64,000 nucleotides of DNA from Achromobacter pestifer (GTDB lineage: Bacteria > Pseudomonadota > Gammaproteobacteria > Burkholderiales > Burkholderiaceae_B), in NCBI RefSeq assembly GCF_013267355.1, contig NZ_CP053985.1:6882001-6946000 (forward strand). The letters run 5' to 3'. Below are positions 43,347 to 57,561 of this stretch, piece after piece (positions within the stretch are counted from its first letter, which is position 1; every line of letters starts with the position of its first letter). The notes below the pieces were generated by a model. It made no database searches. It was not told the origin of the DNA and saw nothing but the letters and a program-made list of their open reading frames with translations. A program made the translations under genes and the position numbers.

Positions 43347-43766
43347 TCAGGCAATCGACACGTCCAGACGGCGCCCAAGCTGCCCGAGAGCGGATTCGAC
43401 CTGCTCGATCCGGGATGCGTGGCGCACGTTGAGCAAGCGATCTACTTGCGGCATGTGAACCCCCATGCGCCTCGCCAACTCCGCCTTGCGTACTCCCTGA
43501 AGAATCATCTCGTTCGACAGAAAGACCTTGCTGGTGACCAAGGCAGGCAAGGTTACCGATGCCTGGCCCTTCGCGGGCTTGGAGGGCATGGGAATGGGGC
43601 GGCGCGCCTCGAAGTAGATCTCCAGCGCAGCTTCGAGCGCCTCTTCGGCGTTGATCGCCGCCTCATCGGCGTCCTGTCCCACGGTGAGCGCTTCTGGAAT
43701 ATCAGGAAACTGGACTAGCCACGTATCGTTGGTGTCGCGAGTCAGGGTGTAGGGATAGGTCAGCAT
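43347..43766 (-). CDS. hicB: HicB-family antitoxin
   Basis: Antitoxin of 139 residues. The N-terminal partial RNase H-like fold (YTLTRDTNDTWLVQFPDIPEA, split as WLVQFPDIPEALTVG) is the HicB domain. The C-terminal ~50 residues form a helix-turn-helix (GVRKAELARRMGVHMPQVDRLL) for DNA binding. It follows the hicA toxin gene on the minus strand with a 76-base gap. It should repress the hicAB promoter at the repeats at 44056-44092. Confidence 0.93.
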   Translation of the reverse strand: MLTYPYTLTRDTNDTWLVQFPDIPEALTVGQDADEAAINAEEALEAALEIYFEARRPIPMPSKPAKGQASVTLPALVTSKVFLSNEMILQGVRKAELARRMGVHMPQVDRLLNVRHASRIEQVESALGQLGRRLDVSIA

Positions 43767-43842: not shown

Positions 43843-44028
43843 TCATTTCAAACCGAGCTGTTTCTTGATTTCGCTTTCCAGATGCTTGCCCATTTCCTTG
43901 GACCCGTGATGTGGAAAGATCGTGGTCACGCCGTTCAAGGTAACCCGGTAATGGCTGCTGCCTGACTTGTGCGGCACAAACACTGCCCCTTGTCGTTCCA
44001 GCCATCTCTTGAATTCGCTGTATTTCAT
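43843..44028 (-). CDS. hicA: HicA-family mRNA interferase toxin
   Basis: Toxin of 61 residues with the double-stranded RNA-binding-like HicA fold. It begins MKYSEFKRWLERQGA and has the active-site His in KSGSSHYRVTLNG and the end GKHLESEIKKQLGL. It should cleave mRNA when free of HicB. It is upstream of hicB and just downstream of the twin operator repeats. The base composition upstream is AT-rich, unlike the surrounding genome. Confidence 0.94.
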   Translation of the reverse strand: MKYSEFKRWLERQGAVFVPHKSGSSHYRVTLNGVTTIFPHHGSKEMGKHLESEIKKQLGLK

Positions 44029-46503: not shown

Positions 46504-47313
46504 TCAGCGCCCGCCCGCCTCCGGCATACAGGCCGGCGTGACACACGCGGCCGGCGCCTTGATCAGGAACTCCTTCAGGCTGGCCACGTTGTTCTTCTTG
46601 AAGATGCGGTTCTTGTAGGTGACCACGGTGGTGGGCGACAGGCCCAGCTCGCGCCCCACTTCCTTGGCGGTATGGCCCTGGCGCAGCAGGTCCGCCACCT
46701 GGATCTCGCGCAAGGACAAGCCGCTGCACCACGAGGCCGCGCGCGGCGGCTCCGTTTCCAAGCGGCACAGCTGGTGATGGCGCCGCGCCAGCGCGATCAG
46801 CAAGGGCGCGCGTCCCCGCATCAGTTCGGTGACGTTCGGCGAATGCATGCGCGAAAAGTACAGGTTCAGGTAGCTGATGCCTTCGTCGCGGGAGCCGATG
46901 AGCGAAATCTTGCTGGCAAAGCCCGGGCGCTCGAACAGCAGGCGGCGGTACTCGTCATCCGCGATGCGTTCAGGCGACGCGGTCTGGACGACCAGGTCCG
47001 GATGCTGGCCGGGCCGGCAAGCCATGTCGCGCAGCAGGCCGTAATTGGGATCGCGCCGGTAGAACTCGTTGTCCACGAACACGTTGGTGGTCCATTCGAT
47101 CAAGGACTGGTTCAACAGGCTGGCCGCCGATGAATACTGCACCGAGCCCTCATGGCCGTAGAACACGTGCGACACGTGGTCGGCGGCCACGGTTTCGCGC
47201 AGCGCCAGCAGCAGCGCGGCATGGAACATCGGACCGCCCAGGTCCATGACGGCGGACTCGGCCCAGCGGTCCGGCCCCCCGCCCGCGGGCATAGGGTTGT
47301 TTGTCTCTTCCAT
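46504..47313 (-). CDS. LuxR-family transcriptional regulator
   Basis: Regulator of 269 residues with a C-terminal LuxR helix-turn-helix (~200-265: LSLREIQVADLLRQGHTAKE, then LSPTTVVTYKNRIFKK). The N-terminal ~190 residues are a sensory region without a clear receiver or autoinducer domain. ATG 47313 has GGGGAAAA about 9 bases upstream; the frame is open to 47478 without similarity. It is divergent from the FAD monooxygenase gene and is the likely regulator of the aromatic cluster. Confidence 0.88.
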   Translation of the reverse strand: MEETNNPMPAGGGPDRWAESAVMDLGGPMFHAALLLALRETVAADHVSHVFYGHEGSVQYSSAASLLNQSLIEWTTNVFVDNEFYRRDPNYGLLRDMACRPGQHPDLVVQTASPERIADDEYRRLLFERPGFASKISLIGSRDEGISYLNLYFSRMHSPNVTELMRGRAPLLIALARRHHQLCRLETEPPRAASWCSGLSLREIQVADLLRQGHTAKEVGRELGLSPTTVVTYKNRIFKKNNVASLKEFLIKAPAACVTPACMPEAGGR

Positions 47314-47461: not shown

Positions 47462-49162
47462 ATGAAAGAGCTTCCCATCTATCCATACGTCAGGCCCGGG
47501 GAAATGGACCGCCCCCGCCGCGATCCGCATCCCGTGGCCGTCGTGGGGGCCGGATTGACCGGCCTGACGCTGGCCCTGGACCTGGTGCGGCGCGGCATTC
47601 CCGTGGTCGTGCAGGACGACGACAACACCGTCGGCGTGCGCGGCCTGGCATCGCGCGGCATGGTCTGGGCGCAACGCACGTTGGACATCTTCGACCGGCT
47701 CGGCATGGCCGGCGACGTGGTCGGCAAGGGCGTGCGCTGGAACGTGGGCCGCGTGCTGTGCCGCGACATGGCGGTGGCGTCGTTCACGCTGCAGGACCAG
47801 CCCGACATGCGCCACAACGGCTTCGTCAACCTGCAGCAGTACTACCTGGAAGCCTTCCTGGTGGATGCGCTGATGCGCGAGCCGCTGGCCGAGCTGCGCT
47901 GGCTGAACCGCGTCGCCGGCATCGAGCCACGCGCGGACGGCACAGCGACGCTGCAGGTGGCAACGCCCGATGGCGCCTACGCCTGCCGCGCGCAATGGGT
48001 GGTCGCCTGCGACGGCGCCAAGAGCGCGGTGCGCGGCATGCTGGGCCTGAGCCCGCGCGTCTACGACCAGACCGAGGACCGCTGGATCATCATCGACATC
48101 GTGCTGCGCGACACCGCCTGGCCGGAAGAACGCTGGACCTGGCTGGACGCCCGCAGCAACCACGGCCGCGCGGTCTGGCGCCACAAGATGGCCGACGACA
48201 CCTGGCGCCTGGATTTCCAGTTGCGCCCCGACGAGGACTGCGCCGAGGCGGCCACCGACGCCGCCATGCGCCAGCGCGTCTGGGACCTGCTGGGCGAACG
48301 CGTGGCGTTCGACATCGCCTGGCACGGCGTCTGGGCCTACCGCCATGAATGCCTGGACAGCCTGCGCCACGGCCGCGTGCTGTTCGCCGGCGATTCAGCC
48401 CACCTGGTCGCGCCCTTCGGTGCGCGCGGCGGCAACGGCGGCATCCAGGACGCCGACAACCTGGGCTGGAAGCTGGCCCTGCTACTGCAAGGCCGCGCGG
48501 GCGACTCCCTGCTGGACACCTACAGCGTGGAGCGCAAGCACGCGGCGATGGAGAACATCCGCCAGGCGCGTCGCTCCTCGCGCTTCGTCTACCCGGGCAC
48601 GGCCCGCTCGGCCGCGCTATGGCGCGACGCCATCATCGACCTGGCGCCGCGCCACGCCACCGCCGCCCGCATGATCAACACCGGCCGCCTGTGCATGCCG
48701 GCCGTTTATCCCGCGTCGGCGCTGGCGCGGGGCTCTCATGCCCTGGCGGGGCGCGCGCTGCCCAACGTGGTGCTGCGGCAAAGCGACGGCCTGACCCTGC
48801 ACGGGCTGCTCGGCCCCTGGTTCACCGTGCTGGTGTTCGGCAATGCCCTGCCCGCCGCCGCAAAGGACGACGACGGCCTGCTGCGCTGGGTCGCCGTTGG
48901 GCCGCTGTGCGACGAACGCGGACGCGCCGCCCTGGCGCACCAGCTCGGCCAGACGCTGGACGGCCAAGCCTGGCTGCTGCGTCCCGACCAGCACGTCATG
49001 GCGGCCGCCCAGCCCGAGAACGGCGACCCCGAGGCCGTGCGGGCCTGGATAAGCGAAGCGCTGGACCCGGCCTGCGCCTGTCCCGAATCCCAACCCGAAA
49101 CCCGCGGCCTCTACCGCTCAACCGGAGGCGCCAGCCATGCCGCTATCCCAGCAACAACTTGA
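47462..49162 (+). CDS. FAD-dependent aromatic monooxygenase (MhpA-like)
   Basis: Flavoprotein hydroxylase of 566 residues, PheA/MhpA class. The N-terminal Rossmann motif VVGAGLTGLTLALDLVRRG (~25-43) binds FAD. The DG motif VVACDGAKSAVRG is at ~180, and the GD motif VLFAGDSAHLVAPFGARGGN is at ~305-325. A thioredoxin-like C-terminal domain follows. It should use NAD(P)H and O2 to add a hydroxyl to a phenolic ring. AGGGAAA precedes the ATG. It leads the cluster and overlaps the next small gene by 26 bases. Substrate unknown. Confidence 0.9.
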   Translation: MKELPIYPYVRPGEMDRPRRDPHPVAVVGAGLTGLTLALDLVRRGIPVVVQDDDNTVGVRGLASRGMVWAQRTLDIFDRLGMAGDVVGKGVRWNVGRVLCRDMAVASFTLQDQPDMRHNGFVNLQQYYLEAFLVDALMREPLAELRWLNRVAGIEPRADGTATLQVATPDGAYACRAQWVVACDGAKSAVRGMLGLSPRVYDQTEDRWIIIDIVLRDTAWPEERWTWLDARSNHGRAVWRHKMADDTWRLDFQLRPDEDCAEAATDAAMRQRVWDLLGERVAFDIAWHGVWAYRHECLDSLRHGRVLFAGDSAHLVAPFGARGGNGGIQDADNLGWKLALLLQGRAGDSLLDTYSVERKHAAMENIRQARRSSRFVYPGTARSAALWRDAIIDLAPRHATAARMINTGRLCMPAVYPASALARGSHALAGRALPNVVLRQSDGLTLHGLLGPWFTVLVFGNALPAAAKDDDGLLRWVAVGPLCDERGRAALAHQLGQTLDGQAWLLRPDQHVMAAAQPENGDPEAVRAWISEALDPACACPESQPETRGLYRSTGGASHAAIPATT

Positions 49163-49343
49163 CGACCTGCTGGAGCGCCTCATCGCGCTCACCAACGTAC
49201 CCGACCCCGAAGCCCAGCGCGACAGCCTGGCCCGGCTGTCGCTGCTGCTCATCGAAGCCGTGGACGACGCGGCCCGGGTGCAGGCGGCGGTCGACGAAAT
49301 GCTGGCGTTCCAGCCGGATTCGCCCGCCCTGAACATTCCATGA
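49137..49343 (+). CDS. Small protein, DUF2783-like
   Basis: Protein of 68 residues, almost all helical (LDDLLERLIALT, RLSLLLIEAVDDAARVQAAVDEML). It resembles the DUF2783 proteins found in aromatic degradation operons, though I cannot test this. It has a good GGAGG site 8 bases upstream and overlaps both neighbours, so it is translationally coupled. It may assist the monooxygenase. Function unknown. Confidence 0.75.
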   Translation: MPLSQQQLDDLLERLIALTNVPDPEAQRDSLARLSLLLIEAVDDAARVQAAVDEMLAFQPDSPALNIP

Positions 49344-49360
49344 ACCACGGAGACGGCGCC

Positions 49361-49957
49361 ATGACGCTCACCCCATCCCATGCCTCCCCGGCGGGCGCCC
49401 GCCCCGCCATCCAGGGCCTGCACCACTTCGCCTGGCGTTGCCGCGACGCGGAGGAAACCCGGCATTTCTATGAAGACATCCTGGGCCTGCCGCTGGTGCA
49501 CGTGGTCAAGGAAGAACGCGTGCCCTCCACTGGCGAGCACTGCCCCTTCGTGCATCTGTTCTTCGAATTCGCCGACGGTTCGCACATCGCCTTCTTCGAC
49601 CTGGGCGACAACGGCCAGAGCCAGCCCGACCCCGCCACGCCGCGCTGGGTCAACCACTTCGCCATGGAAATCCGCGGCGACGCCGAGCTGGAGCGGATGC
49701 GCCAGCGGCTGCTGTCCCATGGCGTCGAGGTGGTGGGGCCGACCGACCACCACTTCATCCGCTCGATCTATTTCTTCGATCCCAACGGCGTCCGGCTCGA
49801 ACTGACCTTGCGCCTGCCGGTGGACGACTACGTCGCCCGCAAGCGCCGCAGCGCCCATGACGACCTGGCGGCCTGGACCCGCGACAAGGCCGCCGGCCTG
49901 ATGCCCGGTGCCAGCGGCACCAGCAGCCAGCAGCGCAGCCAGGCCCACGCCGGCTGA
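49361..49957 (+). CDS. VOC-family protein, probable ring-cleavage dioxygenase
   Basis: Protein of 198 residues in the vicinal oxygen chelate (glyoxalase/bleomycin/extradiol dioxygenase) superfamily. Two beta-alpha-beta modules carry candidate metal ligands: His in QGLHHFAWRC (~21-22), His in VNHFAMEI (~100) and Glu in NGVRLELTLR (~150). ATG 49361 was preferred because GGAG lies 8 bases upstream; ATG 49340, overlapping the previous stop, is the alternative. In a cluster with hydroxylase, isomerase and FAH hydrolase it is the best candidate for the ring-opening step. This role is inferred. Confidence 0.85.
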   Translation: MTLTPSHASPAGARPAIQGLHHFAWRCRDAEETRHFYEDILGLPLVHVVKEERVPSTGEHCPFVHLFFEFADGSHIAFFDLGDNGQSQPDPATPRWVNHFAMEIRGDAELERMRQRLLSHGVEVVGPTDHHFIRSIYFFDPNGVRLELTLRLPVDDYVARKRRSAHDDLAAWTRDKAAGLMPGASGTSSQQRSQAHAG

Positions 49958-49990
49958 GCCGCCCCACTTTCCATCCATTCAAGGAACACC

Positions 49991-50950
49991 ATGAGCAAAC
50001 CCTTCGCCTCCCAGGCCGACCTGGCGGAAAAGAAGATCTCCTTCGAGCGCCTGTCCGACAACGCCTACGCCTACGTGGCCGACGGCGACCCCAACTCGGG
50101 CGTGATCATCGGCGACGACAGCGTGATGGTGGTCGACGCGACCGCGACGCCGGCCATGGCCCAGGCGCTGATCCGCGCCATCCGCGGCGTCACCGACAAG
50201 CCCATCCGCCACGTGGCGCTGACCCACTATCACGCCGTGCGCGTGCTGGGCGCATCCGCCTTCGCCGCCGAAGGCGCGGCCAACGTGTACGCCAGCCGCG
50301 GCACGCATGAACTCATCGTCGAGCGCGGCCAGGCCGACATGGATTCGGAGATCGGCCGTTTCCCGCGGCTGTTTCAGTCCGCCGAAGGCATTCCGGGACT
50401 GACCTGGCCCACCGTGGTGTTCGAGCGCGAACTGACCGTGTTCCTGGGCAGCCTCGAAGTGCGCATGCTGCACCTGGGCGCCGGCCACACCCGCGGCGAC
50501 TCCATCGTCTGGATTCCATCGCAGGGCATCTGTTTCTCCGGCGACCTGGTGGAGTTCAACGCGGGCGTGTACACGGGCGATGCCTACTTGTCCGACTGGC
50601 CCGCCACGCTGGACGCGCTGCAAGCGCTGGAACCGCGCCAGATGGTGCCGGGCCGCGGCCCCGCGCTGACCACGCCCGCCGCCTGCCGCGAGGCCATCGG
50701 CTACACGCGCAGCTGGGTCGAAACGCTGTACGGCTGCGCCCGCCAGGGCGTGGAGCAAGGCAAGAGCCTGAAGCAGGTCTATGAAGACACGCGCCGCGTG
50801 ATGGACCCGGAGTTCGGCCACGTCGTCATCTACGAACACGCGATTCCCTTCGACGTCTCGCGCGCCTATGACGAGGCCAGCGGCATCACCGATCCGCGCG
50901 TCTGGACCGCCCAGCGCGACCGCGACATGTGGGCCGAACTCACCGCCTGA
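49991..50950 (+). CDS. Metallo-beta-lactamase-fold protein with altered metal motif
   Basis: Protein of 319 residues with the metallo-beta-lactamase fold. The canonical HxHxDH motif reads THYHAVR (residues 78-84): two His are kept but Asp and the third His are replaced by Val and Arg. Later ligands are partly kept (GAGHTRGD, CFSGDLVEF), while the usual GHG loop is GRG. It may bind one metal or have a new chemistry. AAGGAA precedes ATG 49991. It follows the VOC gene by 33 bases and precedes a terminator-like hairpin. Confidence 0.85.
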   Translation: MSKPFASQADLAEKKISFERLSDNAYAYVADGDPNSGVIIGDDSVMVVDATATPAMAQALIRAIRGVTDKPIRHVALTHYHAVRVLGASAFAAEGAANVYASRGTHELIVERGQADMDSEIGRFPRLFQSAEGIPGLTWPTVVFERELTVFLGSLEVRMLHLGAGHTRGDSIVWIPSQGICFSGDLVEFNAGVYTGDAYLSDWPATLDALQALEPRQMVPGRGPALTTPAACREAIGYTRSWVETLYGCARQGVEQGKSLKQVYEDTRRVMDPEFGHVVIYEHAIPFDVSRAYDEASGITDPRVWTAQRDRDMWAELTA

Positions 50951-50973
50951 TCCCGGCACGCCCCCGCGCCACG

Positions 50974-50994
50974 AGGCCCCGCCGCGGGCCTTTT
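50974..50994 (+). terminator. Terminator-like hairpin inside the catabolic cluster
   Basis: AGGCCC-N6-GGGCCT followed by TTT. It lies between the metallo-beta-lactamase-fold gene and the FAH gene, and may lower expression of the downstream half. Confidence 0.5.
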
Positions 50995-51017
50995 CATCCG
51001 ATACGGAGCACCTGAAC

Positions 51018-52052
51018 ATGAAACTCGCCACCCTGAGCAACGGCGCCCGCGACGGCGCCCTGGCCGTCGTCGACCGCGGCCTGACCCGCCTGCGCGCCGT
51101 GCCCCACATCGCCGCCACCTTGCAGCAGGCGCTGGACGACTGGGCCCGCGCCGCGCCGCTGCTGCAGGCCGAATACGAGGCGCTGAACGCCGGCGAAGGC
51201 GCCAGCCAGCCCTTTGATCCTGCCCGTTGCGCCGCGCCCCTGCCGCGCGCCTACCAATGGCTGGACGCGTCGGCCTACCTGAACCACGTCGAGTTGACGC
51301 GCCGCGCCCGCGGCGGCGAGATGCCGCCTTCCTTCCTGAGCGATCCGCTGATGTACCAGGGCGCATCGGACGACTTCATGGGTCCCTGCGAGGACATCAC
51401 CGCCGCCAGCGAGGAACTGGGCGTGGACCTGGAAGCCGAAATCGTGGTGGTGACCGACGACGTGCCGCTGGGCGTGGACGCGGACACGGCGCTTGCGCAC
51501 GTAGCGCTGCTGGGCCTGGTCAACGACGTGACCTTGCGCAACGTGGTGCTGCCCGAACTGTCCAAGGGCTTCGGCTTCCTGCAGGGCAAGCCGGCCTCGG
51601 CGCTATCGCCCGTGCTGGTCACGCCCGACGAGCTGGCACCCTACTGGCGCGGCGGCAAGCTGCACCGCGCCATGCAGGTATGGCTCAACGGCCAGCAGAT
51701 CGGCCAGCCCCAGGCGGGCGAGGAAATGCAGTTCCATTTCGGCGAGCTGATCGCGCACGCCGCCCGCACGCGCCGCCTGGGCGCGGGCACCCTGGTGGGC
51801 AGCGGCACCATTTCGAATGCCAGCGACGCCGCCGGCGTGTGCTGCCTGGTCGAAGCACGCGTGCGCGAAAAACTGCGCGACGGCGAAATGCGCACGCCCT
51901 TCCTCAAACACGGCGACCGCGTGCGCATCGGCATGCGCGACGACGCGGGCGCAAGCCTGTTCGGCGACATCGACCAACAGGTGCGCATTCCTGGCACGCG
52001 CCCCATGCCTGGCGCCGTATCGGCCAGCGCGCCCGAAACCACCGCCGCCTGA
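51018..52052 (+). CDS. Fumarylacetoacetate hydrolase-family protein
   Basis: Hydrolase of 344 residues that should cleave a fumaryl-oxo acid (fumarylpyruvate or fumarylacetoacetate) to fumarate and a small acid. The FAH core (~90-330) has EDITAASEELGVDLEAEI with metal ligands, the block NVVLPELSKGFGF and the catalytic-region VGSGTISN. ATG 51018 was chosen for the family start MKLATLSNG; the frame is open to 50868 without similarity. It acts after the zeta-GST isomerase encoded next. Confidence 0.9.
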   Translation: MKLATLSNGARDGALAVVDRGLTRLRAVPHIAATLQQALDDWARAAPLLQAEYEALNAGEGASQPFDPARCAAPLPRAYQWLDASAYLNHVELTRRARGGEMPPSFLSDPLMYQGASDDFMGPCEDITAASEELGVDLEAEIVVVTDDVPLGVDADTALAHVALLGLVNDVTLRNVVLPELSKGFGFLQGKPASALSPVLVTPDELAPYWRGGKLHRAMQVWLNGQQIGQPQAGEEMQFHFGELIAHAARTRRLGAGTLVGSGTISNASDAAGVCCLVEARVREKLRDGEMRTPFLKHGDRVRIGMRDDAGASLFGDIDQQVRIPGTRPMPGAVSASAPETTAA

Positions 52053-52064
52053 CCGGAAAGCCTC

Positions 52065-52733
52065 ATGAACGACACGCCCGCCCTCACCCTGCACAGCTAC
52101 TGGCGCAGTTCCGCGGCCTACCGGGTCCGCATCGCCCTGGCCTTGAAGGGCCTGCCCTACCGGCAGGTCACCTGGCACATGGTCAAAGGCGAACACCAGC
52201 AGCCCGCCTATCGCTCGCTGGCGCCCTTCGGCCTGGTGCCCATGCTGGAAATCGACGGCCTGCGCCTGCAGCAGTCGCTGGCCATCATCGAGTACCTGGA
52301 CGAGCGCCATCCCGGCGCGCCGCTGCTGCCGGCCGATCCGGCGCTGCGCGCGCAGGCCCGCGCGCTGGCGCAGCTGATCGCCTGTGAAATGCATCCACTC
52401 AACAATCTGCGGGCGCTCAAGCGCCTGCGCGCGCAGTTCGGCGCGGATGACGAACAGATCCAGGACTGGTACCGCCACTGGTGCGCGGAAGGCTTCCAGG
52501 CCTTCGAGGCGGCGTTGCCCGCGGCGCAGGAAGGCGGCTACGCGCTGGGCGCCGCGCCCACGCTGGTCGAGTGCTACCTGATCCCGCAGGTCTACAACGC
52601 CTTGCGCTACGGCGCGGACCTGGCGCCCTTCGAACGGGTCCGCGCCATCGTCCAGGCCTGCGCCGGCCAGCCTGCCTTCGAAGCGGCCCGCCCGGAAAAC
52701 CAGCCCGACGCGCCGCAGAGCGCGGCGGCCTAG
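52065..52733 (+). CDS. maiA: Maleylacetoacetate/maleylpyruvate isomerase, zeta-class GST
   Basis: Glutathione transferase of 222 residues, zeta class. The N-terminal thioredoxin-like domain has SYWRSSAAYRVRIALALKGL, the Ser-Ser glutathione-activating motif. The C-terminal helical domain has HPLNNLRALKRL. It converts maleyl- to fumaryl-products in the homogentisate or gentisate pathways, matching the FAH gene 12 bases upstream. The exact substrate is open. Confidence 0.92.
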   Translation: MNDTPALTLHSYWRSSAAYRVRIALALKGLPYRQVTWHMVKGEHQQPAYRSLAPFGLVPMLEIDGLRLQQSLAIIEYLDERHPGAPLLPADPALRAQARALAQLIACEMHPLNNLRALKRLRAQFGADDEQIQDWYRHWCAEGFQAFEAALPAAQEGGYALGAAPTLVECYLIPQVYNALRYGADLAPFERVRAIVQACAGQPAFEAARPENQPDAPQSAAA

Positions 52734-52787
52734 GCAACGCCCCCCAATAAGAAGCTGAACCGCCGCATTCCCCCAACGGAGACAACC

Positions 52788-54140
52788 ATGCAGACAGAAA
52801 TCCCCGCCGACGGCGCCGCCGTCGCATCCGCCCACCGGGCCGCGTCCGGGCCGCTGGTCAGCGCCGACGACCGCAAGGTGCTGGCCGCCACGTTGGTCGG
52901 CTCGGCCATCGAGTGGTACGACTACTTCATCTACGTCCAGGCCGCCGGCCTGGTGCTGGGTTCGCTGTTCTTCGCGCCTTTCGCCAAGGAGAACCCGGAA
53001 CTGTCGCTGATCCTGTCCTTCGCGACCGTGGGCGTGGCCTTCCTGTTCCGGCCGCTGGGCGCCATCGTCTGCGGCCATCTGGGCGACCGCTATGGCCGCA
53101 AGCGGGTGCTGGCGGCCACGCTGATCCTGATGGGCGTGTCCACCGCGCTGATCGGCGTGCTGCCCACCTACGCGCAGATCGGCCTCTGGGCGCCGGTGAT
53201 GCTGGTGACGCTGCGCGTGCTGCAAGGCTTTTCCGCCGGCGGCGAATGGGGCGGCGCGGCGCTCATGGCGGTCGAGCATGCGCCCCGCGACCGGCGCTCG
53301 CTGTTCGGCGCCTTCCCGCAGATCGGCGTGCCGCTGGGAATGATCGTCGCCACCGGCGTGCTGTGGTGCATTACCTCCCTGGTCGGCCCGGACAACTTCA
53401 TGGCCTGGGGCTGGCGCGTGTCCTTCCTGCTGTCCATCGCGCTCATCATCGTCGGCGTCTTCATCCGCCGCGCCGTCGAGGAATCGCCTGTATTCCTGGA
53501 AATGCAGTCGCGCCGCAGCCATTCATCGGCGCCGCTGGGCACGCTGTTGCGCAAGCATCCGCGCCAGATCCTGCTGACCACGCTGATCTTCGTGGGCAAC
53601 AGCACGGCGGGCTACCTGCTGGTCGGCTTCTTCATCAGCTACGGCAGCCGCACGCTGCACATGCCGCCGCAGCAGGTGCTGATGATCTGCACGCTGGCCG
53701 CCGCCTGCTGGCTGGGCACCACGCTGCTGGGCGGCTGGCTGGGCGACCGCATCGGCCGCGTGCGCACCTTCCAGCTCGGCTACGTGCTGCTGGCGCTGTG
53801 GGCCATACCGATGTGGTCCTTCATCGAATCCGGCGATGTCATGCAGTTTGCCTTCGCCCTGGCCGTGCTGTCGGTGCCGCTGGGCCTGACCTACGGCCCG
53901 CAGGCCGCGCTGTACGCCGAAATGTTCCCGGCCGACGTGCGCTACTCCGGCGTGTCGGCAGGCTATGCGCTGGGCTCCATCCTGGGCGGCGCCTTCGCCG
54001 CGATGATCGCGCAGTCCATCATCACCGCCACGGGCCAGTCCTGGCATGTGGGCGTGTACGTCATCGCCATGGCGGTGGTGTCCTTCGTCGCCGTGACCCT
54101 GGTCAAGGACCGGCCCGGCGTCACGCTGCACGCCGATTGA
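52788..54140 (+). CDS. MFS metabolite:H+ symporter
   Basis: Inner-membrane importer of 450 residues with 12 helices. The metabolite:H+ symporter signatures IEWYDYFIYVQAAGLV, GDRYGRKRVLAATLILMG and LQGFSAGGEWGGAALM are present. Members take up aromatic or dicarboxylic acids (benzoate, shikimate, alpha-ketoglutarate). Position in the cluster suggests it imports the pathway substrate. It starts 54 bases after maiA. Confidence 0.92.
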   Translation: MQTEIPADGAAVASAHRAASGPLVSADDRKVLAATLVGSAIEWYDYFIYVQAAGLVLGSLFFAPFAKENPELSLILSFATVGVAFLFRPLGAIVCGHLGDRYGRKRVLAATLILMGVSTALIGVLPTYAQIGLWAPVMLVTLRVLQGFSAGGEWGGAALMAVEHAPRDRRSLFGAFPQIGVPLGMIVATGVLWCITSLVGPDNFMAWGWRVSFLLSIALIIVGVFIRRAVEESPVFLEMQSRRSHSSAPLGTLLRKHPRQILLTTLIFVGNSTAGYLLVGFFISYGSRTLHMPPQQVLMICTLAAACWLGTTLLGGWLGDRIGRVRTFQLGYVLLALWAIPMWSFIESGDVMQFAFALAVLSVPLGLTYGPQAALYAEMFPADVRYSGVSAGYALGSILGGAFAAMIAQSIITATGQSWHVGVYVIAMAVVSFVAVTLVKDRPGVTLHAD

Positions 54141-54177
54141 ACCCGATCCCTCCTGAAGCCATTCATCCACGCACGCC

Positions 54178-55731
54178 ATGAGCCCCACCATCCGCCAGGA
54201 CGACCTGATCGAGTCCATCGCCAGCGCGCTGCAGTACATCAGCCACTACCACCCGGCCGACTACATCGCGCACCTGGCCCGCGCCTACGAACGCGAAGCC
54301 AGCGCGCCGGCGCGCGACGCCATGGCGCAGATCCTGGCCAGCTCGCGCATGGCCGCCATCGGCCGGCGGCCCATCTGCCAGGACACCGGCATCGTCAACG
54401 TGTTCCTGGAAGTCGGCATGGACGTGCGTTGGGAGGGCTTTACCGGCGGCCTGGAAGATGCCGTCAACGCCGGCGTGCGGCGCGCCTACCTGGACCCGGA
54501 CAATCCGCTGCGGGCCTCGGTGGTGGCGGACCCGCTGTTCGGCCGCGGCAACACCCGCGACAACACGCCCGCCGTCATCAGCATGCGCATCGTGCCGGGC
54601 GCCAGCGTGGCCGTCACCGTGGCAGCCAAGGGCGGCGGTTCGGAGAACAAGGCGCGGCTGGCCATGCTGAACCCGGCCGACAGCATTGTCGACTGGGTAC
54701 TGGCGCAGATTCCCGCCATGGGCGCCGGCTGGTGCCCGCCCGGCATGCTGGGCATAGGCGTGGGCGGCACCGCCGAAAAAGCGGTGCTGCTGGCCAAGGA
54801 AAGCCTGATGCAGCCCCTGGACATGCATGAACTGCAGGCCCGGGCGCAGCGCGGCGAAACACTGGCGTCCGAAGACGCGCTGCGGCTCGAACTGCACGAG
54901 CGCGTCAACGCCCTGGGCGTGGGCGCGCAGGGTCTGGGCGGCCTTACCACCGTGCTGGACGTGAAGATCAAGACCTACCCCACGCACGCGGCCGCCAAGC
55001 CCATCGCGCTGATCCCCAATTGCGCGGCCACGCGCCATGCAAGCTTCGTGCTGGACGGCTCCGGCCCCACCCACCTGGCCCCGCCCTCGCTGGATCTCTG
55101 GCCCGACCTGGGACCGGAACGCGCAGCCGGCACGGGCCGTCGCGTGAACCTGGACACCCTCACCCGCGAGGAAGTCGCGTCCTGGCGCGCCGGTGAAACC
55201 CTGTTGCTCAATGGCCGCATGCTGACCGGACGCGACGCCGCGCACCAGCGCATCCGCGAAATGCTGGCCCGCGGCGAACCCCTGCCCGCCGACTTCCGCG
55301 GCCGCGCCATCTATTACGTGGGCCCGGTGGACGCCGTGCGCGACGAGGCCGTCGGCCCCGCCGGCCCCACCACCTCGACCCGCATGGACGGCTACACCGA
55401 CATGATGCTGGCGCAAACGGGGCTATTGACGATGATAGGCAAGGCCGAACGCGGCCCGCAGGCGGTCGAAGCGATCCGGCGCCACCGGGCGGCCTACCTG
55501 ATCGCGGTGGGCGGCGCGGCCTATCTGGTGTCCCGCGCCATCCGCAGCGCCCGCGTCGTCGCCTTCGAGGACCTGGGCATGGAAGCGATCCATGAATTCG
55601 AAGTCACGGACATGCCCGTGACCGTGGCGGTGGACGCCGAGGGCGGCAACCTGCATGTGTCGGGGCCCGCGCAGTGGCGGCGGGCGGCGGGGGCCAGGGA
55701 GATACCGGTGGCCTTGGCGGGGGCTGCATGA
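54178..55731 (+). CDS. Class I (iron-sulfur) fumarate hydratase
   Basis: Enzyme of 517 residues that hydrates fumarate to malate with a 4Fe-4S cluster. Both domains are in one chain, as in FumA. The N-terminal part has PICQDTGIVNVFLE, GWCPPGML and PNCAATRHASF, supplying the cluster cysteines. The C-terminal part has YYVGPVDAVRDE and GPTTSTRMDGYTD. Here it would absorb fumarate released by the FAH enzyme. The gene ends the plus-strand cluster. Tartrate dehydratase is a less likely alternative. Confidence 0.92.
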   Translation: MSPTIRQDDLIESIASALQYISHYHPADYIAHLARAYEREASAPARDAMAQILASSRMAAIGRRPICQDTGIVNVFLEVGMDVRWEGFTGGLEDAVNAGVRRAYLDPDNPLRASVVADPLFGRGNTRDNTPAVISMRIVPGASVAVTVAAKGGGSENKARLAMLNPADSIVDWVLAQIPAMGAGWCPPGMLGIGVGGTAEKAVLLAKESLMQPLDMHELQARAQRGETLASEDALRLELHERVNALGVGAQGLGGLTTVLDVKIKTYPTHAAAKPIALIPNCAATRHASFVLDGSGPTHLAPPSLDLWPDLGPERAAGTGRRVNLDTLTREEVASWRAGETLLLNGRMLTGRDAAHQRIREMLARGEPLPADFRGRAIYYVGPVDAVRDEAVGPAGPTTSTRMDGYTDMMLAQTGLLTMIGKAERGPQAVEAIRRHRAAYLIAVGGAAYLVSRAIRSARVVAFEDLGMEAIHEFEVTDMPVTVAVDAEGGNLHVSGPAQWRRAAGAREIPVALAGAA

Positions 55732-55793: not shown

Positions 55794-56612
55794 TCAGCCC
55801 AGCTTGAATTCCACCACCGCCCCGCCGCTGCCATACAGCGGCGCATATTCCAGCACCTTGGCGCCGCGGAACCGGTCGCCCAGCGCGCCCAGCAGCCAGG
55901 ACATGTGCTTGAAGCCCATTTCCGCCTTGGCCTGCCCGGCGTACTCCGGCATCGCCGCGCGCAGTTGCGCGGCGTCGCCGCTTTCCAGCAGCGCCAGCAT
56001 GCGGCGGTTCCAGTCGTCGTCGGACTGCGAGATCAGGCGGTCGGATTCCGGCGCCACCGGCTCGCGGAACATGGTGTTGGACAGCCCGCCTATGCCGATG
56101 ACCGCCGCCCGCTTGCCCTGCGCCGCGGCCGCCTGCACCGCGATGCGGCTGAGCTGCTCCGTCTGCGCGTTGTCGTGGTACAGGTTGTTGGCCGCCAGCG
56201 TCACGGGCAGCGCATCCGAACCGAAGCCCATCAGCGTGCTGACCGTGATGGTGCCCGTGTCGATGGGAAACTGGTCGTAGTCCACGCCGCGCGCATGGAT
56301 GCCGGCGTCGCGGCAGCCCTGCACGCAGGCTTCGGCCAGGCTCGCGTCGCCGGCGATGTCGAAGGGCAGCTCGCCGTACTCGTGCCAGTTCTCGTCCACG
56401 TGCACGCCGGTGCTGCGCGCGCGCGTGATCCACAGCTGGTCCAGCACCGCCATCCACTGTGTCGAATACACCAGCACCACGTCGGGCCGGGAAGCTGCCA
56501 GCGTCTTGCCGGCCGCGCGCAGCGCCTGGTTCAGCCGTCCCCAGGGCGCCACGTCGCTGCGCAGCTGCGGCAGCGGGCTGCCGGGAACGAGAAATGCGGA
56601 TACGAGGGTCAT
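55794..56612 (-). CDS. amnA: 2-Aminophenol 1,6-dioxygenase-like alpha subunit
   Basis: Protein of 272 residues with the class III extradiol dioxygenase (LigB) fold, very like the non-catalytic AmnA subunit. It begins VSAFLVPGSPLPQL, where the catalytic subunit's HPPH ligand region is absent, so it should not bind iron. VLVYSTQWMAVLDQLW and YDQFPIDTGTITVSTLMG are further family blocks. It follows amnB by 19 bases on the minus strand and should form a heterotetramer with it. It converges on the fumarase gene. Confidence 0.85.
   Translation of the reverse strand: MTLVSAFLVPGSPLPQLRSDVAPWGRLNQALRAAGKTLAASRPDVVLVYSTQWMAVLDQLWITRARSTGVHVDENWHEYGELPFDIAGDASLAEACVQGCRDAGIHARGVDYDQFPIDTGTITVSTLMGFGSDALPVTLAANNLYHDNAQTEQLSRIAVQAAAAQGKRAAVIGIGGLSNTMFREPVAPESDRLISQSDDDWNRRMLALLESGDAAQLRAAMPEYAGQAKAEMGFKHMSWLLGALGDRFRGAKVLEYAPLYGSGGAVVEFKLG

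Positions 56613-56631: not shown

Positions 56632-57561
<930 letters not shown>

Follow-up and report, generated by a model that had tools for sequence, protein, structure and literature searches.

A VOC protein as the probable ring-opening enzyme of an aromatic acid cluster in Achromobacter pestifer

Which enzyme opens the aromatic ring in a cluster of Achromobacter pestifer that encodes a hydroxylase, an isomerase and a hydrolase of the homogentisate type and no cupin dioxygenase? The cluster is a single same-strand run at positions 47462-55731 of a 64,000-nucleotide stretch of contig NZ_CP053985.1 (positions 6,882,001 to 6,946,000; hereafter the window), and an initial annotation had proposed that a VOC protein opens a 2,5-dihydroxy aromatic ring there in place of the cupin. 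Our analyses support this proposal by inference, mostly by way of a sister subfamily (VOC-II) of the one (VOC-I) in which the window protein is filed. We consider it likely that the one-domain VOC protein (49340..49957, + strand; 205 aa), as an Fe(II) ring-cleaving dioxygenase, opens the ring of a 2,5-dihydroxyphenyl acid that the hydroxylase produces, after which isomerase, fumarylacetoacetate-hydrolase-family (FAH) protein and fumarase would follow. The evidence comes from gene neighbourhoods, from genomes with HPPD, FahA or FAH and VOC-II and no HmgA, from an invariant H-H-E residue set and from a match to PDB entry 9u42.

A tblastn search at 1e-4 with queries for HmgA, HmgA-like proteins and gentisate dioxygenase gave zero matches in the window, in agreement with the earlier statement that the cluster lacks a cupin dioxygenase. 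A set of hydroxylase, DUF2783 and metallo-beta-lactamase-fold (MBL) genes adjoins hmgA on annotated plasmids of Dinoroseobacter, Sinorhizobium fredii, Gemmobacter and Roseomonas, with a fahA or FAH-family gene in all four loci and maiA in three of them; on a Sphaerotilus plasmid the same set stands with a VOC gene and fahA, and hmgA is not in view. The A. pestifer genome (7.18 Mb) itself holds three related loci: one in which HmgA and FahA accompany DUF2783, hydroxylase and MBL; the window cluster itself; and a VOC-I/FAH locus with a hydroxylase and a small protein.

The occupancy of this slot was assessed in loci selected by their MBL gene (97 of the 104 listed places outside the A. pestifer genome; G331, G601, G504, G552, G258, G582 and G232, six of which belong to a single genus that the sample already covers, were left out, as were 11 further places). 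When HmgA and HmgA-like proteins of approx. 380 aa were both counted as cupins, 45 of the 97 loci held a cupin only, 18 a VOC protein only, 3 both and 31 neither; among the 73 loci that also held a hydroxylase, the numbers were 44, 16, 3 and 10, respectively. An earlier tally of 100 loci, which included three loci of P. xenovorans LB400 picked by hydroxylase and left HmgA-like proteins uncounted, gave 18 with VOC, 38 with HmgA, 3 with both and 41 with neither. Fisher's test on the locus counts yielded P = 5.6e-7, which is no true probability as the loci are related. The VOC match lay within 100 bp of a DUF2783, hydroxylase, MBL or hydrolase match in all 21 VOC loci of the sample, and the VOC protein belonged to VOC-II in 15 of the 16 VOC-only loci with a hydroxylase and to VOC-I in the other. 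The HmgA-like cupins (376-382 aa) follow DUF2783 in L138 (6423-7571), L140 (6434-7573), L152 (6363-7493) and L162 (12504-13640); the one scanned (L162) scored over the cut-off for HgmA_N and just 93 bits for TIGR01015, the HmgA model. These proteins are candidates for a third ring opener.

Among genomes with a VOC gene in a hydroxylase/MBL-type locus (21 genomes; 20 VOC-II and 1 VOC-I), 13, all of them VOC-II genomes, showed no match to PF04209 (HmgA) and none over the cut-off to PF20510, for which G644 gave one weak match below it. HPPD was over the cut-off in 8 of these 13 genomes, including the single-contig genomes G644 and G464, and FahA or FAH was encoded in the same gene run in 7 of the 8; in G876 the contig ends just past the VOC gene.

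The H-H-E set of the VOC protein was invariant across the aligned relatives and falls at H29, H106 and E154 of the window protein, which we propose as Fe(II) ligands; H28, H72, H137 and Y144 are further active-site candidates. The best structural match was 9u42 (35-37% identity), entitled "Homogentisate 1,2-Dioxygenase from Acinetobacter in Complex with Zn ion", a one-domain VOC-fold protein of 182 aa that is identical to the window protein at positions 28, 29, 72, 106, 137, 144 and 154. The initial annotation had pointed to LinE and other ring-cleaving VOC enzymes for comparison; 9u42 is a closer basis for comparison than LinE/PcpA. The subfamily split was made by residue 81, with 9u42 in VOC-II (although it carries the VOC-I letter at 156), and the window protein lacks the VOC-II signature by this criterion of ours. 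In the tree VOC-II groups apart with 99/96 support and the window protein outside; the outgroup row (L093) was unusable, being in the wrong frame, no branch separates VOC-I from the other rows, and the root was not relied on.

We also analyzed the neighbourhoods of VOC-I genes in public genomes, using up to 10 kb on either side of the best 80 of at least 566 relatives of the window protein (71 stretches longer than 12 kb, 9 of 12 kb or less; all 80 labelled VOC-I). Neither HmgA nor an HmgA-like protein was found in any of the 80 stretches, and a gentisate dioxygenase was found in one. One of two kinds of FAD monooxygenase was present in 59 stretches, an FAH, FahA or alpha/beta hydrolase in 64, and monooxygenase and hydrolase together in 54. 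The window arrangement recurs in ten Achromobacter loci when the window itself is counted, although L014 gave no isomerase or fumarase matches, and, rearranged, in two Nitratireductor loci and one Rhodoplanes locus; this recurrence excludes chance as the source of the arrangement. The closest named relatives of the window VOC protein are likewise from Achromobacter. The Nitratireductor and Rhodoplanes layout comprises fumarase, isomerase, VOC, hydroxylase, small protein, MBL, FAH and a LuxR-type gene, with ketopantoate-reductase-like and class II aldolase-like proteins (Pfam on L031) and with genes that, from their protein starts, we take to be TRAP-like in place of the major facilitator superfamily (MFS) gene. 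Substitution of the VOC protein for the glutathione (GSH)-dependent isomerase was rejected, as both are present in the window and in these loci. Another recurring layout consists of VOC, alpha/beta hydrolase, hydroxylase and MBL. In Paraburkholderia and relatives, the VOC gene stands with a different FAD monooxygenase (PF01494, L016), FahA, xanthine-dehydrogenase genes and UbiD (by annotation); L002 and other Paraburkholderia loci hold VOC-I, FahA, this other monooxygenase, xanthine-dehydrogenase genes, UbiX and UbiD, and are candidates for an aromatic or heteroaromatic pathway.

Several observations weigh against a ring-opening role of the window VOC protein. The function of 9u42 is given by the title of the entry, in which the molecule is named "Glyoxalase" and Zn is bound; VOC-I and VOC-II differ at 12 positions (38, 41, 43, 50, 54, 68, 81, 87, 89, 96, 105 and 156), each at least 90% fixed. 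The triad occupies places that we take to be common to Fos-type VOC enzymes, and thus the triad alone is no proof of a dioxygenase. It is VOC-II that trades places directly with HmgA and that occurs in the HmgA-less genomes; the case for VOC-I runs through kinship, shared residues and neighbours, and G596, the sole genome of the 21 with VOC-I, has HmgA. Moreover, a monooxygenase was not seen in 21 and a recognised hydrolase not in 16 of the 80 VOC-I stretches, ten of the 73 hydroxylase loci hold neither ring opener, and three (L201, L205 and L210) hold HmgA and VOC-II together. The A. pestifer genome also holds HmgA, its cupin HmgA and gentisate dioxygenase genes lying in clusters of their own. 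Finally, among 300 genomes of the order, VOC-II (at least 61% identity to the query) was found in 35 and HmgA in 65 (including 12 weak matches with E values from 1e-6 to 7e-4, likely HmgA-like), and the two co-occurred in 9 genomes as compared to 7.6 expected (P = 0.52). Genome-wide exclusion between VOC-II and HmgA was thus rejected; the exchange shows at the level of the locus and not of the whole genome.

In an alternative reading, the VOC protein is an accessory (a glyoxalase-like isomerase or a rescuer of side products) and HmgA or another dioxygenase elsewhere opens the ring. The absence of mutual exclusion in the 300 genomes, the HmgA of the A. pestifer genome and the three loci that combine HmgA, VOC-II and an isomerase would all fit such a role. 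It is opposed by the 13 VOC-II genomes without HmgA by two domain models, two of which bear HPPD over the cut-off and are single-contig, by the lack of HmgA in all 80 VOC-I stretches and by the title of 9u42; we regard it as unlikely.

If the VOC protein is the ring opener, the chances that its substrate is homogentisate are about even. Homogentisate is favoured because the window FAH protein is 52% identical to the FAH protein adjoining hmgA in S. fredii NXT3, and doubted because VOC-I forms a subfamily of its own and HmgA is already encoded in the genome. Gentisate is disfavoured: elsewhere in the genome a cupin gentisate dioxygenase scored over the cut-off near an isomerase and a monooxygenase-like gene (as well as a gene call that we take to be FAH-like), and the window cluster would thus be unneeded for gentisate. 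We give slightly less than an even chance to the joint reading that VOC-I is a separate dioxygenase family for a 2,5-dihydroxy acid other than homogentisate (e.g., the 2,5-dihydroxyphenyl analogue of mandelate, lactate or propionate), unserved by cupins or 9u42-type enzymes, and spread over Burkholderiales and Alphaproteobacteria with FAH, FahA and alpha/beta hydrolase as three hydrolase partners.

The genes named by the initial annotation were all confirmed at their positions, and so was their tight coupling, with overlaps of 26 bp between hydroxylase and small ORF and 4 bp between small ORF and VOC gene and with gaps of 12-67 bp between the remaining genes. The FAD-dependent aromatic hydroxylase (47462..49162, +; PF01494, 5e-58; NCBIfam PRK08132 subfamily, 512 bits, cut-off 416) appears MhaA-like, with 36% identity to MhaA of P. 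xenovorans LB400 and 40-41% to two hydroxylases beside HmgA. In a tree from a quick search (rows thinned at 85% identity, midpoint root) it falls among 24 rows that all have VOC-I, apart from LB400 MhaA; the latter groups with the hydroxylase of the third A. pestifer locus in a set of 6 rows (support 100), 4 of which have VOC-I, 1 HmgA and 1 neither, so that the ring opener differs within one hydroxylase group. The small protein (49137..49343, +; 68 aa) had been described as DUF2783-like. Neither it nor LB400 MhaB matched Pfam DUF2783, but a home-made profile of DUF2783-type neighbours gave 2.3e-8 for LB400 MhaB and 1e-5, a weak match, for the window protein in a two-sequence search (6e-4 for the latter among 120 sequences); remote membership was thus retained, and this match and the position after the hydroxylase gene point to a putative MhaB-like coupling protein. 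LB400 MhaA and MhaB adjoin hmgA1B1C1 and are proposed, from their similarity to the enzyme of P. putida U, as a 3-hydroxyphenylacetate 6-hydroxylase (PMC3053370).

The MBL protein (49991..50950, +; PF00753; solved relative 8d2z, 1e-144) carries, together with 98 relatives, HxHxVR in place of HxHxDH. The loss of this Asp and His, with the HxH histidines (H79, H81), R84, H166, D185 and R222 each kept in at least 98 of 99 rows (R222 in all 99), would suit a mononuclear iron enzyme that opens the ring instead of the VOC protein. We consider this very unlikely, since the MBL gene adjoins cupin HmgA in many loci, stands without a hydroxylase in 24 of the 97 MBL-selected loci (e.g., L130, beside PaaA/PaaB genes) and had no match in 57 of the 80 VOC-I stretches. 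In L130 (5105-10487), Pfam placed the MBL relative beside PaaA, PaaB, PaaC-type and TetR genes; L128, L129, L131 and L137 resemble it, judged by protein starts. These neighbours hint at action on a phenylacetate-related compound, and the MBL protein may hydrolyze a lactone or thioester of (hydroxy)phenylacetate.

Downstream, the cluster encodes the FAH protein (51018..52052, +; PF01557 and PF18288; 3lzk match at 1.4e-102) and a GSH-dependent maleylacetoacetate/maleylpyruvate isomerase (52065..52733, +; TIGR01262, 260 bits, cut-off 171; 49% identity to LB400 HmgC1), i.e., a homogentisate-type lower pathway pair of MaiA and FAH. The MFS importer (52788..54140, +), first described as an aromatic acid importer, scored best with metabolite/H+ symporters (TIGR00883, 394 bits, short of the 443-bit cut-off), ahead of the ShiA model (324) and the aromatic acid/H+ family (just 78). 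The run ends with a class I (Fe-S) fumarase (54178..55731, +; PF05681 and PF05683; TIGR00722 and TIGR00723 over the cut-off). We also count as part of the cluster, beyond the set first described, a LuxR-type regulator with a GerE helix-turn-helix domain (46504..47313, -; PF00196, 2e-11), divergent and 148 bp from the hydroxylase start.

A LigB-type pair (55794-56612 and 56632-57558, -), aminophenol-dioxygenase-like, lies convergent to the fumarase gene. Were this pair the ring opener, the cluster would serve a catechol or an aminophenol; the first member does score as LigB in Pfam (PF02900), the two are 27% alike, and both score weakly to HpaD. The opposite strand, the presence of the pair in 5 of the 10 Achromobacter loci (including the window) and in no other of the 80 VOC-I stretches, and the lack of an obvious use for isomerase and FAH with such a product make this highly improbable. 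Elsewhere in the window, adjoining HicB-like (43347-43766, -) and HicA-like (43843-44028, -) genes, over the cut-off for PF15919 and PF07927, are likely a toxin-antitoxin pair.

With the VOC protein as ring opener, the cluster would be an operon for the breakdown of an aromatic acid, most likely one of the 3-hydroxyphenyl type. The MhaAB-like hydroxylase and coupling protein would form homogentisate or a closely similar 2,5-dihydroxyphenyl acid; the VOC protein would bind Fe(II) through H29, H106 and E154 and add O2 across the bond that links the side-chain-bearing ring carbon to the hydroxylated one, taking the place of cupin HmgA and giving a maleyl-diketo acid; the isomerase would convert the maleyl to the fumaryl form, FAH would release fumarate and a keto acid, and fumarase would pass the fumarate to the tricarboxylic acid cycle. 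We infer every one of these reactions, and the metal, regiochemistry, substrate and MBL step, from the comparisons above.

A VOC protein in the HmgA slot, if this is correct, would explain genomes with HPPD and FahA or FAH and no HmgA, and a genome scored for the cupin enzyme alone may seem to lack such a route. It would also provide a testable role for proteins annotated merely "VOC" or "glyoxylase I family"; DUF2783 proteins would be linked to the MhaB coupling component, and VOC-I and VOC-II would be a natural pair for asking how one fold selects among 2,5-dihydroxy acids. In titles and abstract openings (few subscription journals, no preprints), we found no description of a VOC homogentisate dioxygenase, although a paper on 9u42 may exist, nor of a ring-opening role for VOC-I, of cupin HmgA and VOC-II replacing each other at the locus level, or of the DUF2783-MhaB link; no VOC-I member with known activity was met in our searches. 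A VOC-fold homogentisate dioxygenase is not new as a kind, the PDB title having been on record since July 2025.

Compared to known systems, the hydroxylase and small protein may correspond to MhaAB of Pseudomonas putida U and P. xenovorans LB400, a flavoprotein and small coupling protein beside homogentisate genes (PMC3053370). AromaDeg places homogentisate and gentisate cleavage with cupins (PMC4250580); HmgA occupies the same slot beside MhaAB-like hydroxylase, MBL, FAH/FahA and MaiA in other genomes, but its fold is unrelated to VOC and the window cluster has none. One-domain VOC extradiol dioxygenases (BphC2/BphC3; L-DOPA dioxygenase 6on3, 17% identical to the window protein) open vicinal diols. 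PcpA and LinE are described as VOC-superfamily hydroquinone 1,2-dioxygenases opening para-dihydroxy rings (PMC4250580, PMC3727088), and PcpA, at 37 kDa (PMC3727088), differs in size from the 205-aa window protein.

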